Shown: positions 18,369 to 43,232 of the stretch, in pieces
Numbering within the stretch: the first letter of the stretch is position 1
How the letters are laid out: each line of letters opens with the position of its first letter
Origin: an uncultured Psychroserpens sp.
GTDB lineage: Bacteria > Bacteroidota > Bacteroidia > Flavobacteriales > Flavobacteriaceae
Assembly (NCBI RefSeq): GCF_947500255.1
Contig: NZ_CANMRL010000001.1
Location: 1 to 64,000 of the forward strand
Length of the DNA stretch: 64,000 nucleotides
Direction: 5' to 3'
Made by a program: the position numbers and the translations under genes
Notes under the pieces: generated by a model
The model's input: the letters and a program-made list of their open reading frames with translations, nothing else
Database searches by the model: none
What the model was told of the DNA's origin: nothing

Positions 18369-18445
18369 TTCTGGTGCAAAAGTAATGAAAGGAATAACGA
18401 TATTCGATATTCGATTTATGATTTTATAGTGCCTTAACTCGCATT

Positions 18446-18505
18446 AGTGATGGAAGCGGCATCCTTTTGCCTCTTTTTGGCAAAAGATATAGCTGAGAGC
18501 ACGAC
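18446..18505. ncRNA. Structured intergenic element (hairpin with conserved-looking flanks)
   Basis: CTTTTGCC (18464-18471), a 7-base loop and GGCAAAAG (18479-18486) make a perfect 8-bp stem. It is flanked by GTGATGGAAGCGGCAT on one side and ATATAGCTGAGAGCACGACC on the other. I recall near-identical flanks (GAAGCGGCATCC...GATATAGC) in many flavobacterial intergenic regions. It lies between the queA terminator and rlmN and has no open frame. Whether it is transcribed, and from which strand, is not known. Confidence 0.45.
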
Positions 18506-18527
18506 CCTTTGGGGAATGCCCAAATAA

Positions 18528-28453: not shown

Positions 28454-28480
28454 AAAAGCCTCAATACGTTTGAGGCTTTT
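28454..28480 (-). terminator. Intrinsic terminator of the aromatic amino acid operon
   Basis: AAAAGCCTCAA (28454-28464) and TTGAGGCTTTT (28470-28480) form a perfect 11-bp stem with a 5-base loop. A long T run follows on the minus strand. It lies 4 bases past the last stop codon of the pheA operon. Confidence 0.9.
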
Positions 28481-28484
28481 AAGT

Positions 28485-29567
28485 TTATCCGTTAATAATC
28501 TTTTCTTGGTGATTGATGGATTCTTGGTGAATGGCTTTAAACACACGTAAGATAAATTCTTCGCTCAAGTTCTTCTCTTCGCCTTGCAGGATCATTTTGC
28601 CAAGAATTTCATTCCAACGTTTGGTTTGTAAAACAGCAACGTTTCTAGACTTCTTTAACTCTCCAATACCATCTGCCACGATCATACGTTTGCCTAACAT
28701 TTCAATTAATTGATGATCTATCACATCAATCTTTGTACGAAGCGTATTCAATGCATTCTTGAATTCTGCTTCATTATCTGTTTCCTTTCTAATACGTAAA
28801 TCTTCAGTATACTTGATCAATGTATCTGGTGTGATCTGTTGAGCTGCATCACTCCAAGCTTTATCAGGATCGTAATGCGTTTCTATCATTAAGCCATCAT
28901 AATTAAGATCAAGGGCAGTTTGACAGAGATCGAAAATAATATCTCGACGACCAGCAATATGTGACGGATCCAAAATTAAAGGTAAATCAGGAAAACGGTT
29001 TTGAAGGTCAACAGCAATTTGCCATTCAGGATTATTTCTATAACGTGTTTTTTCATAAGTTGAAAACCCTCTGTGGATTACACCTAGATTTTTTACATCT
29101 GCCGTGTGAAACCGTTCTACAGCACCTAACCAAAGCGCCAAATCTGGATTCACAGGATTTTTAATCAATACTGTTTTATCGGTTCCTTTTAAAGCATCTG
29201 CGATATCTTGCACAATAAACGGACTCACAGTAGTACGCGCACCAATCCATAATATGTCAACATCGTGCTTTAAGGCCAAATCAACATGATGTGCGTTAGC
29301 AACTTCGGTCGTAATCATCATTCCCGTTTCCTCTTTCGCCTTTTGTAGCCATTTCAAACCCAATGCACCAACGCCTTCAAAATTCCCAGGGCGTGTTCTA
29401 GGTTTCCAAATACCAGCTCTTAACACAGTAGCATCACTATCTTTTAACTGGTGCGCAATTTTTAAAACCTGCTGCTCAGTTTCGGCACTACATGGTCCTG
29501 CAATAACAAGCGGATGTTCTAATCCGAACTTATCTAACCATGCTCTCAACTCTTTCTTATTCTCCAT
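28485..29567 (-). CDS. Bifunctional 3-deoxy-7-phosphoheptulonate synthase / chorismate mutase
   Basis: The 360-residue fusion begins with a DAHP synthase of the KDO8PS-like type (about 1-262; VIAGPCSAETEQQVLKIAHQ, RAGIWKPRTRPGNFEGVG, DPSHIAGRRD) and ends with an AroQ-type chorismate mutase helix bundle (about 270-355; LRTKIDVIDHQLIEMLGKRM). It combines the entry step of the shikimate pathway with the branch step to prephenate. In related fusions the mutase domain mediates feedback by prephenate or chorismate. It is last in the pheA-aminotransferase-tyrA operon and ends at a strong terminator. It is expected to share the attenuator upstream of pheA. Confidence 0.93.
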   Translation of the reverse strand: MENKKELRAWLDKFGLEHPLVIAGPCSAETEQQVLKIAHQLKDSDATVLRAGIWKPRTRPGNFEGVGALGLKWLQKAKEETGMMITTEVANAHHVDLALKHDVDILWIGARTTVSPFIVQDIADALKGTDKTVLIKNPVNPDLALWLGAVERFHTADVKNLGVIHRGFSTYEKTRYRNNPEWQIAVDLQNRFPDLPLILDPSHIAGRRDIIFDLCQTALDLNYDGLMIETHYDPDKAWSDAAQQITPDTLIKYTEDLRIRKETDNEAEFKNALNTLRTKIDVIDHQLIEMLGKRMIVADGIGELKKSRNVAVLQTKRWNEILGKMILQGEEKNLSEEFILRVFKAIHQESINHQEKIING

Positions 29568-29576
29568 AATTTTCTA

Positions 29577-30428
29577 TTAAGCAATTCCTTTTAATATCTC
29601 TTTTATATGATTTGTATTTTTCATTTCGTTGTAAATCTCATCAAAATCATCGGCTTCCATCAACGTTTTAAATTGTTTCAAATTGGCGATATATTCTTCT
29701 AATGTTTCAATAACATTCTCTCTATTTTGTTTAAAAATTGGTGTCCACATTTCAGGAGAACTTTTAGCCAAACGTACAGTACTCTCAAAACCACTTCCTG
29801 CCATATCAAAAATATCGCGTTCGTTCTTTTCTTTTTCTATAACTGTTTTACCCAACATAAATGAACTAATGTGCGATAAATGAGACACGTAAGCAATATG
29901 TTTGTCATGAGCTTCTGGATTCATATATCGAATACGCATACCTAAGTCTGAAAATAACTGTAAAGCTTTCTCTTGCAATTTAAATGTGGTTTTCTCAACC
30001 TCACAAATAATGTTCGTTTTCTTCTGAAACAAATCTCTTATAGCTGCTTTAGGTCCAGAAAATTCGGTTCCGGCAATAGGATGTGTTGCCAAAAAATTAC
30101 GACGTCTTTTGTGGTCTTCAATAGCTTTACAAACAGGAAGCTTGGTTGAGCCAACATCAATCACCAATGTTTGATCTGAAATAACATCCAATATTTTTGG
30201 TAACTCAAGAACTGCCTTATCAACTGGAATAGCGAGCACCACTAAATCGGCATTATGCAAATCATCATACGATGCTTCATCTTCAATAATATTGAGCGCA
30301 ATGGCTTGCTGTATGTGATCGTTATTAGCATCAATTCCAAAAACTCTAGCCTTGTTGTAATTAGATTTGATATCTAACGCCAAACTCCCACCAATTAATC
30401 CTACACCAATAATGTAAATGTTATTCAT
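29577..30428 (-). CDS. tyrA: Prephenate dehydrogenase
   Basis: The 283-residue NAD(P)-dependent enzyme of tyrosine biosynthesis has an N-terminal Rossmann motif IGVGLIGGSLALDI. HPIAGTEFSGPKAA carries the catalytic His, and SHLSHISSFML and FESTVRLAKSSPEMW lie in the helical C-terminal domain. There is no ACT domain. It follows the aminotransferase gene by 3 bases and precedes the DAHP synthase/chorismate mutase gene by 9 bases, so the operon covers both the Phe and Tyr branches. Confidence 0.94.
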   Translation of the reverse strand: MNNIYIIGVGLIGGSLALDIKSNYNKARVFGIDANNDHIQQAIALNIIEDEASYDDLHNADLVVLAIPVDKAVLELPKILDVISDQTLVIDVGSTKLPVCKAIEDHKRRRNFLATHPIAGTEFSGPKAAIRDLFQKKTNIICEVEKTTFKLQEKALQLFSDLGMRIRYMNPEAHDKHIAYVSHLSHISSFMLGKTVIEKEKNERDIFDMAGSGFESTVRLAKSSPEMWTPIFKQNRENVIETLEEYIANLKQFKTLMEADDFDEIYNEMKNTNHIKEILKGIA

Positions 30429-30431
30429 ATG

Positions 30432-31577
30432 CTATGTCAATCTTGCTAGTGCTTCTTCCAACTCATCTTGAGGCGCACACAATGAAATTCTTATATATCC
30501 TTTTCCATTACTTCCAAAAATAGTTCCTGGCGTAATAAAAATAGATCTCTCTTTTAGTATTAAATCTATATACTCTTCGGCATCTAAATAGTCGGGTAAT
30601 TTTGCCCAAACAAATAAGCCTGTCGATCCTTTATCATAGGTACAATTAAGTGCCTCGGCTATCTGCCATGCAATTTTTCGACGTTGTTCATAAACACTAT
30701 TGAGGCTTAAAAACCAAATATCAGAGCAGTTTAGAGCTTCTATTGCACCTTTTTGAATCCCTAAAAACATTCCAGAATCCATGTTACTTTTTACGCGTAA
30801 TACGGCGTTGATGTACTCACTTTTTCCTAACAACATACCTACACGCCAACCTGCCATATTAAAGGTTTTACTAAGCGAATTTAATTCCAAACACACCTCA
30901 GAAGCTCCATTATATTTAAGAATACTTCTTGGGTATTTATTCAATATAAAGCTGTATGGATTATCATTAACAATCAAAATATCATTTCGCTTTGCGAATG
31001 TTATCAAATCTTCAAATAATTTATTTGTAGCAGCTGCTCCAGTTGGCATATGAGGATAATTCACCCACATGAGCTTTACCTTTTCAAGGCCTCTTTTTTC
31101 TAGAGCAATAAGATCTGGCAACCAATTATTATCTTCTGTAAGATCATAATGCACGGGTGTAGCTCCTACTAAATTAGTCACCGATTGATATGTTGGATAA
31201 CCTGGATTTGGAATCAATACCTCATCGCCTTCATTTAAAAACGCCATAGATATATGTAAAATACCCTCTTTGCTTCCCATAAGTGGAAGGATTTCTGTCA
31301 ACGGGCTCAACGGTACATTGAAGTACCTTTTATAAAAATTGGCAATAGCCTCCCTTAGTTCTGGTATCCCTTGATAGCTTTGATATTTATGTGCTCCTTC
31401 TTCATTAAACGTCTCCACTAATGCATTAAGTACGCGTTCTGGCGGATTTAAATCTGGGCTACCAATACCTAAATTGATAATTGGTTTCCCTTGAGATTTA
31501 AGCAACCTCACTTCTCTTAATTTTTTTGAGAAGTAATATTCTTCAACGTTTTGTAATCGGTTAGCAATCTGAATCAT
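30432..31577 (-). CDS. Class I/II pyridoxal-phosphate aminotransferase (aromatic operon)
   Basis: The 381-residue fold-type I aminotransferase has its PLP lysine at K237 in SLSKTFNMAGWR. NPGYPTY, VNYPHMPTG and the C-terminal RISLCAP Arg are also typical. Between pheA and tyrA it very likely transaminates prephenate, phenylpyruvate or 4-hydroxyphenylpyruvate. It overlaps the pheA stop by 4 bases. Other possibilities include LL-diaminopimelate aminotransferase-like activity, since family members are similar; the operon argues for the aromatic role. Confidence 0.9.
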   Translation of the reverse strand: MIQIANRLQNVEEYYFSKKLREVRLLKSQGKPIINLGIGSPDLNPPERVLNALVETFNEEGAHKYQSYQGIPELREAIANFYKRYFNVPLSPLTEILPLMGSKEGILHISMAFLNEGDEVLIPNPGYPTYQSVTNLVGATPVHYDLTEDNNWLPDLIALEKRGLEKVKLMWVNYPHMPTGAAATNKLFEDLITFAKRNDILIVNDNPYSFILNKYPRSILKYNGASEVCLELNSLSKTFNMAGWRVGMLLGKSEYINAVLRVKSNMDSGMFLGIQKGAIEALNCSDIWFLSLNSVYEQRRKIAWQIAEALNCTYDKGSTGLFVWAKLPDYLDAEEYIDLILKERSIFITPGTIFGSNGKGYIRISLCAPQDELEEALARLT

Positions 31578-32401
31578 TGTCTTGCATTTTTATATTCTCC
31601 CAATACTTTAAACTCTTGAGCCATTATGGTCATTACAGACTTAGCTTTTTCGAAATCTTTATAAGAGTCAAAAGTTAAATCTACAAAAAAAGCATACTTC
31701 CAAGGCGTTTCAATTTTTGGGAGTGATTGTATCTTCGTTAAATTTAACTTACAATCACTTAATACGTTTAAAATAGTCGCCAAACTTCCTCTTTTATGGT
31801 CTAATTCAAATTTAACTGAAGCTTTGTTGATTTCATCTTCAGAAATTTCAGCGTTTTTTGTCTTTACAACTACAAATCGTGTTTCATTGTGTTTAATGGT
31901 TTGAATGCTTTCTGAAATAATCTTTAATTCAAACAATTGTGCAGCTAATTGAGATGCTATTGCTGCAACGTTTTTAATTTGATGTGTCTGAATGCGTTGT
32001 GCTACTTCAGCTGTATCTTTATCTTCAATGAGCTTAATATGCGGATATTGTTTGAAAAAATCTTTGCATTGTAACAGCGCCATTGGATGCGAATACACTT
32101 CTTCAATATCATTAATAGTTTGGTTTGGCAATGCCATTAAGTGATGTTGAATATCTAAATAATGCTCACCAACAATATGTAACCCTTTTGTATCTATTAA
32201 TGCATAATTTGGAATGATCGAACCTGCAATAGAATTTTCAATTGCCATAATTGCAGCATCACTCTTACGAGTCAATAAACTGTCGACTGTTTTATCAAAC
32301 GTCAAATACTCATTAACATCAACCAATTGATCAAAAAATTGCTGTGATACAATGTGATGAAATGATCCTTTTATTCCTTGTATAGCTACTGATTTTATCA
32401 T
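31574..32401 (-). CDS. pheA: Prephenate dehydratase
   Basis: The 275-residue monofunctional enzyme gives phenylpyruvate. The catalytic prephenate dehydratase domain is at about 1-180 (VAIQGIKGSFHHIVSQQF, AIMAIENSIAGSIIPNYAL, NETRFVVV), followed by an ACT domain (about 190-275; KRGSLATILNVLSDCKLNL) for allosteric phenylalanine control. The ATG at 32401 starts just after the T run of an attenuator hairpin. An in-frame ATG at 32422 lies inside that hairpin and was rejected. Enzyme feedback through ACT and transcript attenuation would therefore act together on the same step. Confidence 0.93.
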   Translation of the reverse strand: MIKSVAIQGIKGSFHHIVSQQFFDQLVDVNEYLTFDKTVDSLLTRKSDAAIMAIENSIAGSIIPNYALIDTKGLHIVGEHYLDIQHHLMALPNQTINDIEEVYSHPMALLQCKDFFKQYPHIKLIEDKDTAEVAQRIQTHQIKNVAAIASQLAAQLFELKIISESIQTIKHNETRFVVVKTKNAEISEDEINKASVKFELDHKRGSLATILNVLSDCKLNLTKIQSLPKIETPWKYAFFVDLTFDSYKDFEKAKSVMTIMAQEFKVLGEYKNARQ

Positions 32402-32429
32402 AAAAAAAGTCCCGATTTTCATCGAGACT
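32402..32429 (-). terminator. Attenuator terminator hairpin before pheA
   Basis: On the minus strand AGTCTCGAT and ATCGGGACT form a 9-bp stem (one G-U pair) closed by a GAAA tetraloop and followed by seven T. The pheA ATG begins at the next base. A competing pairing exists: bases 32424-32434 can pair with 32460-32471 (GAGAC/GTCTC plus ATAT/ATAT), which would break the 5' arm of the terminator. That upstream arm lies in codons 21-24 of the leader peptide, as in classical attenuators. Confidence 0.85.
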
Positions 32430-32453
32430 CATATTAAATTTATTCTTAATAAA

Positions 32454-32531
32454 TTATACATATAACGTCTCTTCCTTTTCGTTAAAAAAGAAATAAAACC
32501 AGTTATAATATGTATAATTTAAAGTGTTCAT
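32454..32531 (-). CDS. Aromatic-rich leader peptide of the pheA operon attenuator
   Basis: This is a 25-codon open frame with ATG at 32531 and TAA at 32456-32454. Ten of 25 residues are aromatic: Tyr 6, 8, 9, 13 and 24, Trp 11, and Phe 12, 14, 15 and 16. The dense core reads YTYYNWFYFFF. It ends 24 bases before the terminator hairpin. Ribosomes stalled at codons 6-16 for lack of charged Phe, Tyr or Trp tRNA would leave codons 21-24 free to form the antiterminator. The open frame, residue content and hairpins are seen directly; regulation is inferred. Confidence 0.82.
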   Translation of the reverse strand: MNTLNYTYYNWFYFFFNEKEETLYV

Positions 32532-32656
32532 AGTGTTATTGAATTGCTAATGTAATTATTATTTTAAGAAATCAAAATTGTTATAACATATTTTTGAGTT
32601 TTTCGTTTCAGTTTTAAAGAATTCATAATTTAAAGGTAGCCATTGGTTATAATTAC

Positions 32657-42735: not shown

Positions 42736-42889
42736 TTTTCTAATTTTTTTGAGTTAATAAATAAATTAATTCAAAAGTCAAATGCGCTTTAAAAAGCGTA
42801 CCTAATAGAAAAATGTTATAAGAAATAACGTAAGTACAGATGAGTAATTACGCTGAGTTATCTATCTAAATCGTGATAAATGAATCACG

Positions 42890-42973
42890 CTTCAAGTAGA
42901 ATTTAGCACCTTCTTAATTGCTTAAGGGTTGCTAAGGCTTCTTCGGGTCTATTCCCTCCGCCTTTCTTGATAA
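42890..42973 (-). ncRNA. SAM-I (S-box) riboswitch upstream of the met operon
   Basis: Read on the minus strand from 42973, the sequence has the S-box core in order: TTATCAAGA, AAGGCGGAGGGA, AGACCCGAAGAAGCC, AGCAACC, AAGGTGCTAAATTC and a closing CTTGA. P1 pairs TCAAG with CTTGA. A CGTGAT/ATCACG hairpin follows at 42889-42872 without a T run, so the switching mechanism is unclear. It faces the metB-like, homoserine dehydrogenase, metH and metF genes, which fits SAM feedback. The core match is direct; the family is well known. Confidence 0.93.
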
Positions 42974-43084
42974 CATTTCAGTAAGTTATTGAACTTTGTG
43001 AATACAAATATTGCAATAGAAAAATTAAAAAACCAAATATTTCAGAAAAAAAATAAAATAAATATACTTTCCCCTTTATTTTTT

Positions 43085-43092: not shown

Positions 43093-43108
43093 CCAAATAA
43101 TAATTTAA

Positions 43109-43157
43109 GAGGAAAAATTTGTTCTGATTGCAACCTCAATAAAAAATGCTAAAGCAG
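43109..43157 (+). ncRNA. SAM-II-like riboswitch upstream of metK
   Basis: GAGG (43109-43112) pairs with CCTC (43134-43137) as P1. In the P1 loop, CTG-ATT-GC (43124-43131) can pair with GC-TAAAG-CAG (43148-43157) to give a two-part pseudoknot helix. The words TTGCAACC and TGCTAAAG correspond to the conserved TTGCAGCC and GCTAAA of SAM-II aptamers. It lies 75 bases before metK on the same strand. I cannot run a covariance model, so this rests on motif and pseudoknot fit. Confidence 0.7.
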
Positions 43158-43232
43158 TTAGTTTACAACTTCTCTAGCGACCAAGCAATCTCAATTCATT
43201 TTTCAAAAAACAATATAATTTAAAAGAGATTT

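Follow-up and report, generated by a model that had tools for sequence, protein, structure and literature searches.

The window, meaning the whole 64,000-nucleotide stretch of DNA that was analysed, carries an aromatic amino acid operon on its minus strand. By Pfam identities the operon comprises four genes in one direction: pheA, an aminotransferase gene, tyrA, and a gene encoding a DAHP synthase fused to chorismate mutase. A short open reading frame (ORF) and several competing RNA hairpins lie ahead of pheA. The features are given below from the promoter side to the end of the operon, all on the minus strand. The "named loci" are the best 80 of 208 candidates by pheA similarity, a near sample in which Flavobacteriaceae genera are included.

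32573-32577 (-): TTTTG, candidate -33 promoter element (sequence reading)
32547-32554 (-): TACATTAG, candidate -7 promoter box, TAnnTTTG-like (motif conserved upstream of the leader ATG)
32454-32531 (-): leader peptide ORF, 25 codons plus stop, kept in relatives
32485-32521 (-): segment 1, 5' arm of the predicted 1:2 (protector) hairpin (fold)
32484-32498 (-): putative control codons, run core F12 Y13 F14 F15 F16 (each of the five final run positions is Phe or Tyr in 100-106 of the 107 distinct leaders)
32460-32471 (-): segment 2, predicted to form the antiterminator's 5' arm and lying within leader codons 21-24 (fold and three-way covariation)
32424-32434 (-): segment 3, predicted to form the antiterminator's 3' arm and sharing bases with the terminator's 5' arm (fold and three-way covariation)
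32402-32430 (-): predicted intrinsic terminator 3:4 with U tract (fold; a fuzzy match to its core, made without a shuffled control, lies within 700 nt of pheA in 80/80 named loci)
31574-32401 (-): pheA, prephenate dehydratase (PF00800, 181.5 bits)
30432-31577 (-): class I/II aminotransferase (PF00155), directly 3' of pheA in 80/80 named loci
29577-30428 (-): tyrA, prephenate dehydrogenase (PF02153 and PF20463)
28485-29567 (-): DAHP synthase fused to chorismate mutase (PF00793 and PF01817)
28454-28480 (-): terminator-like hairpin closing the operon (fold prediction)

The leader ORF reads MNTLNYTYYNWFYFFFNEKEETLYV. Its composition of five Tyr, four Phe, and one Trp in 25 codons agrees with the first-pass annotation. 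Eight aromatic residues fall within ten codons, the sole such case among the window's 1023 short ATG frames of 10-45 codons, counted on both strands. Among 12,324 frames from ten shuffled windows, none reaches eight aromatics in ten codons and four reach seven. The terminator consists of a 9-bp stem (AGTCTCGAT/ATCGGGACT), a GAAA loop, and seven T at 32408-32402, the last of which adjoins the pheA ATG (32401-32399). RNAfold agrees with this earlier reading of the terminator and extends the stem to 10 pairs (32430-32407). An in-frame ATG at 32422, beside the terminator loop, would give PheA the additional residues MKIGTFF; the ORF list picks that start, which falls inside the terminator.

Three pairings are predicted for the leader RNA. 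The antiterminator pairs 32471-32460 with 32434-32424 through 11 pairs and one bulge, and the fold that contains it (32480-32423) reaches -12.8 kcal/mol (z -3.88), with 0 of 200 shuffles equally stable. This pairing, with its upstream arm in codons 21-24, had been proposed earlier alongside the terminator, and both are borne out; the earlier list had overlooked a strong 1:2 hairpin that folds the leader ORF on itself (32521-32485 with 32480-32450). Folded whole (144 nt), the leader forms both this long hairpin inside the ORF and the terminator, with an energy of -33.1 kcal/mol (z -5.69; 0 of 200 shuffles). For a transcript that ends before segment 4 and whose initial leader portion is occupied by a ribosome, folding yields the 2:3 pairing.

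The same element list named the ORF, the antiterminator, and the terminator correctly and missed a Bacteroidota-type promoter box at 32554-32547. Of 159 family leaders with sufficient upstream sequence, 155 carry the motif TAnnTT[TA]G no more than 60 nt ahead of the leader ATG, against a flank-based expectation of 8.4; counting distinct upstream sequences gives 145 of 149. The TTTTG at 32573-32577 presumably corresponds to the -33 element of Bacteroidota promoters. In Flavobacterium psychrophilum, the primary sigma consensus is reported as TAnnTTTG at -12 to -5, and translation starts in Bacteroidia are described as independent of the usual Shine-Dalgarno sequences (PMC9723704). Taken with this consensus, the position of the box would put the transcription start near 32542, upstream of the leader ORF and at a distance of 11 nt from its ATG.

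The leader and its terminator are conserved well beyond the window. Both occur in 79/80 named loci, the exception (L077) being a region cut by a contig end. A wider set comprises 153 pheA upstream regions, 80 from a family search, 40 from an order search, and 33 from a class search, hand-picked among the pheA matches listed (matches were present in at least 268/299 family, 74/148 order, and 39/149 class genomes). Five of the 80 family regions are loci also in the named set, and 13 regions of the order sample come from the same family as the window, the remaining 27 from different families. The cut-off for a leader, chosen after close relatives had been viewed, was seven aromatics in ten codons, then six plus a hairpin of -7 kcal/mol. 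At least seven aromatics in ten codons of a short frame are found in 79/80 family, 22/40 order, and 18/33 class regions, compared with 1/80, 1/40, and 0/33 in the reverse-complement control and 3/800, 0/400, and 0/330 in the shuffle control. With at least six aromatics plus the hairpin, leader and terminator are found together in 80/80 family regions, 22/40 of the order sample (13/13 same-family and 9/27 other-family), and 21/33 regions from other orders of the class; seven further class loci have the leader in 7/7. 

Close relatives say little about the pairing. RNAalifold on 81 close sequences detects both-sided change in just 1 of 20 pairs because the alignment is so conserved, and distant relatives were therefore used. 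A set of 203 leaders contains 197 distinct sequences, of which the 107 with a distinct arm 3 were analysed; these are not independent by descent. One leader with a mis-assigned terminator, L062, enters the swap and covariation counts and is dropped only where stated. The predicted duplex between a leader's own segment 2 and its own arm 3 averages -12.44 kcal/mol, against -8.90 kcal/mol with arms from other genomes and -5.84 kcal/mol with shuffled segment-2 regions. When arms are swapped, the own partner beats the median swap in 102/107 leaders and ranks in the best tenth in 51/107; it is the top of all in only 7/107 because many arms have a common core.

Base identities in segments 2, 3, and 4 change together across the 107 distinct arms, as the two competing hairpins of the earlier annotation would predict. 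At core position 0, the 2-3-4 triplets are CGC (73), ATA (16), TGC (7), GTA (3), and GCG (2); at position 4, they are GCG (73), CGC (17), GTA (3), ATA (3), CGT (2), and TAT (1). Segment 2 frequently lacks a partner at inner positions 5 and 6 ('.AT', for instance, accounts for 42/107 at position 6), which makes the antiterminator shorter than the terminator. Because one base suits two partners through both transitions and transversions, the comparison offers strong evidence that 2:3 and 3:4 both form; the segment-2 partner came from the predicted duplex, a choice biased towards pairing.

The spacing of these elements follows the aromatic run. From the last aromatic codon to segment 2, the median distance is 9 nt (interquartile range 8-10; sd 1.74 without L062 and 4.48 with it), while shuffled arms give a gap with an sd of 7.82. 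The distance between segment 2 and the stop codon has an sd of 8.05 without L062 and 8.82 with it. Evolution appears to keep the distance from the run and not from the stop, a pattern that would suit a ribosome waiting on the run.

An occlusion model, in which the front edge of the ribosome is assumed to lie 16 nt from the P-site base, gives a compatible picture. Before segment 4 is made, the modelled probability of 2:3 in the window is 0.68-0.69 for A-site positions from codon 3 to codon 16, falls to 0.01 or less from codon 20, and is 0.007 without a ribosome. Over 106 distinct leaders, the mean is 0.79 for a ribosome at the run end and 0.01 for one at the stop; ribosome-free transcripts average 0.51. 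The probability of 1:2 without a ribosome is 0.93 in the window and averages 0.29 over the 106 leaders, and the model suggests that the ribosome-free state might not be clearly "off" in most relatives. After segment 4 has been made, the terminator prevails at equilibrium in the window wherever the ribosome stands (0.85-0.98); antitermination would therefore have to be a kinetic commitment made during transcription.

The locus thus combines a short ORF rich in codons for the pathway's products, a terminator before the first gene, and a competing antiterminator. Judged by the spacing and the assumed-footprint model, its control codons are placed to free segment 2 on a stall and to leave it covered at the stop. 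The most probable reading, to which a probability of roughly 0.9 can be given from comparative sequence data, is a classical ribosome-mediated transcription attenuator that responds to charged tRNA-Phe and tRNA-Tyr and controls the operon of pheA, the aminotransferase gene, tyrA, and the DAHP synthase/chorismate mutase gene. RNA polymerase would start near 32542, and a ribosome would follow onto the leader ORF. When Phe or Tyr is short, the ribosome would wait on the F/Y run at codons 12-16, covering segment 1 and leaving segment 2 just free; segment 2 could then pair with segment 3 before segment 4 exists, and the polymerase would continue into pheA. When both amino acids are ample, the ribosome would pass codon 20 and cover segment 2, whereupon 3:4 would form and transcription would stop at about 32402. 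If no ribosome is present, 1:2 would form in the window's leader and termination would presumably win as well.

The amino acid specificity of such an attenuator can be judged from the run. Averaged over 107 leaders, the 10-codon stretch contains 4.7 Phe, 2.7 Tyr, and 0.45 Trp residues; the run ends with Phe in 87/107 leaders. This excess would be expected if the attenuator sensed Phe alone, or general translation speed, and the Tyr codons were incidental, yet that explanation is unlikely: at least one Tyr and at least two Phe are present in 106/107 of these stretches, both residues are frequent at each of the last five run positions, Tyr holds the majority at position -3 (69 Tyr, 34 Phe), and the operon includes tyrA and the entry enzyme. 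Trp was considered as the main control codon and rejected. It appears in 63/107 distinct leaders, in 50 of those 63 at offsets -5, -9, and -10 from the run end; the offsets are scattered and the other 44/107 leaders are without Trp. The first-pass suggestion that stalling might "perhaps" extend to Trp is therefore not upheld. Its central proposal, that stalling on Phe and Tyr codons frees the antiterminator, gains comparative backing from the exchange of Phe and Tyr, the three-way covariation, the fixed spacing, and the promoter box.

Codons need not be the sensor if the nascent leader peptide itself arrests the ribosome on free Phe or Tyr, in the manner of TnaC. The motif TY..WFYFFFS is well conserved at the protein level in close relatives, and the fixed gap between run and segment 2 would fit an arrest site as well. 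Part of that conservation is explained, however, by the RNA pairing of segment 1 with segment 2, and in other clades the peptide differs, with Phe and Tyr exchanging at the last five positions in a way that an arrest peptide would rarely allow. Arrest by the peptide is therefore quite improbable. Since Phe and Tyr exchange while the rest of the peptide drifts, the comparison points to tRNA charging as the probable sensor rather than a specific arrest peptide. A leader that binds a protein or small molecule, such as a riboswitch or T-box, with an irrelevant short frame, would account for a structured 5' element that has no Rfam match at gathering score at the locus; it is hardly credible, given that conservation tracks F/Y codon content and ribosome-scale spacing and that the leader alignment is without any further predicted conserved fold. 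An ordinary intergenic terminator next to a chance frame, without regulation, would suit a short frame in an A/T-rich region but is very unlikely and the least credible reading of all, as the frame, spacing, and three-way pairing are kept far above the reverse-complement and shuffled controls.

The preferred reading, an attenuator responsive to Phe and Tyr charging, has well-known counterparts. The enterobacterial pheA leader, pheL (RF01859), likewise combines an aromatic-rich peptide, mutually exclusive pairings, and a terminator before pheA. Its peptide has Phe codons and no Tyr codons, whereas the Psychroserpens run mixes Phe and Tyr and precedes an operon that spans both branches plus the entry enzyme. 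In ilvGMEDA-type attenuators, a single leader similarly holds control codons for several amino acids, there the branched-chain amino acids instead of Phe and Tyr. The Rfam Phe_leader model RF01859 scores 14.5 bits on the window, below its gathering score of 55. On relatives, it scores 25.0-38.8 bits at the leader, on the leader's strand, in 6/8 tested; the best match (L204 344-467, 38.8 bits, E 4e-4) comes near to membership and stays below it. Predictions by Lopatovskaya et al. in 2010 may include Bacteroidetes.

Bacteroid-trp RNA (RF01692), also a leader-type regulatory RNA in Bacteroidetes, is described in PMC2864571 and likened to E. coli trpL in PMC6414381, but it uses Trp codons, and its model has no match at the pheA leader. 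For F. psychrophilum, a conserved structured 5' element without an Rfam match is reported upstream of pheA; further genera of Flavobacteriaceae have it too, and the study separately notes "strong clues" that amino acid operons are attenuated through leader peptides (PMC9723704, 2021). That element is very probably the same as the one analysed here, although the text on it in the 2021 study gives no leader peptide, codons, or pairing for pheA. Passages on leader-like short ORFs in Bacteroides do not mention pheA (PMC7366714). Among the matches listed, from a search that covered few subscription journals, PMC9723704 is the nearest to a description of such a Phe/Tyr leader at pheA in Bacteroidota, and no other paper describing one was found. 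The earlier view that this attenuation is undescribed in Bacteroidota needs correcting with respect to the pheA element and the attenuation clues in that study; it holds, among the matches listed, for the Phe/Tyr leader, the three-way pairing, and the range. A regulatory element at pheA is already in print, and what is added here is the Phe/Tyr specificity, the three-way covariation, and the range.

The range of the leader appears to follow the type of PheA. The leader falls below the cut-off in 17/40 order-sample and 12/33 class loci, including all 11 loci of one family (f5), in which the leader is absent and PheA is merely 30-33% identical to the window's. Two order loci (L256, L257) with five aromatics and a terminator are scored as misses. 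The survey would overlook loci with another gene ahead of pheA, and the class figure may therefore be a lower bound. Elsewhere in the phylum, outside the class, an aromatic-rich frame is found at 4/35 loci (2/33 plus a further 2/2, L344 and L346). PheA is 42-44% identical to the window's at the four loci with a leader-like frame (L344 in G929, L346 in G949, L357 in G876, and L363 in G835) and 32-39% identical at the other 31. The leader therefore seems, from these comparisons, to travel with one PheA type, and gene transfer is a possible source of the out-of-class leaders. When the covariance model was run at order level, it matched 58/395 genomes; the model detects distant leaders poorly, and the survey anchored on pheA was used in its place.

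Enterobacteria combine a Phe attenuator with separate Tyr-responsive repression. In much of Bacteroidia, the mixed Phe/Tyr attenuator might instead be the inherited main switch of the Phe/Tyr pathway, covering the entry enzyme and both branches, tied to one PheA type, and acting as an OR gate for either shortage. The balance tips slightly in favour of this broader view. The probable switch is of a well-known kind and is widely conserved in a class where it is barely described. The locus offers a precise, testable case that Bacteroidia commonly use such attenuation, here with a joint specificity for Phe and Tyr that serves a whole pathway. The attenuator would provide a regulatory part for flavobacteria and would let aromatic amino acid control be predicted in unstudied genomes.

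Some relatives depart from the usual arrangement. One locus (L276, G342:C25:18566-19106) has two tandem attenuators before a single pheA, with leaders MNNLVSTFRFFGFFFFRKEGAMS and MNQNTQQNFSFFGFFFFKWKSEAVD and a terminator after each; the pheA match there contains an in-frame TAG. In three Gelidibacter loci (L045, L050, and L057), extra sequence intervenes, and the terminator core begins 541, 434, and 201 nt upstream of pheA, respectively. Among the 600-kb genomes of family f16 (L266-L268), two have no leader by the cut-off. In L268, MNRTPYYYYFFIELV... is retained and the terminator is gone, as if regulation had decayed in a reduced genome.

Within the Psychroserpens genome, the covariance model of the pheA element scores 134 bits at the locus and identifies one convincing copy. 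The only other match at E values up to 1 (32.5 bits, E 0.1) was rejected as a chance hit to an intergenic terminator, with a hemD-like gene on its upstream side. Leaders for other amino acids are present: upstream of hisG lie a His leader peptide, MTFIQLHHHHFHSSTQAS, and a terminator (L319, about 1172-1228), and a single match to Bacteroid-trp (RF01692) elsewhere in the genome has the WWW-containing leader MNTNLNHTWWWMSRNETS. The Phe/Tyr, His, and Trp leaders of this one genome share, as read from sequence, a common layout. The Trp leader MNTNLNHTWWW... (L024 1521-1577) starts almost like the Phe/Tyr leaders MNTLNHTYYNW... of close relatives (L026, L029, and others), and either a common origin or a shared start-site preference is possible. 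The ilvD gene was considered as a further attenuated operon and set aside, as PF00920 (ilvD/edd N-terminal) has no match in the whole genome; given this result, branched-chain synthesis may be absent from the genome.

The window contains further RNA motifs away from the operon. A SAM riboswitch (RF00162, 73.6 bits) at 42855-42976 (-) and a SAM-II long loop riboswitch (RF01726, 62.1 bits) at 43103-43162 (+) represent two SAM riboswitch classes, 126 nt apart on opposite strands and apparently divergent. At 18432-18510 (+) lies a Flavo-1 RNA (RF01705, 51.2 bits), a motif of Flavobacteriaceae whose function is unknown.
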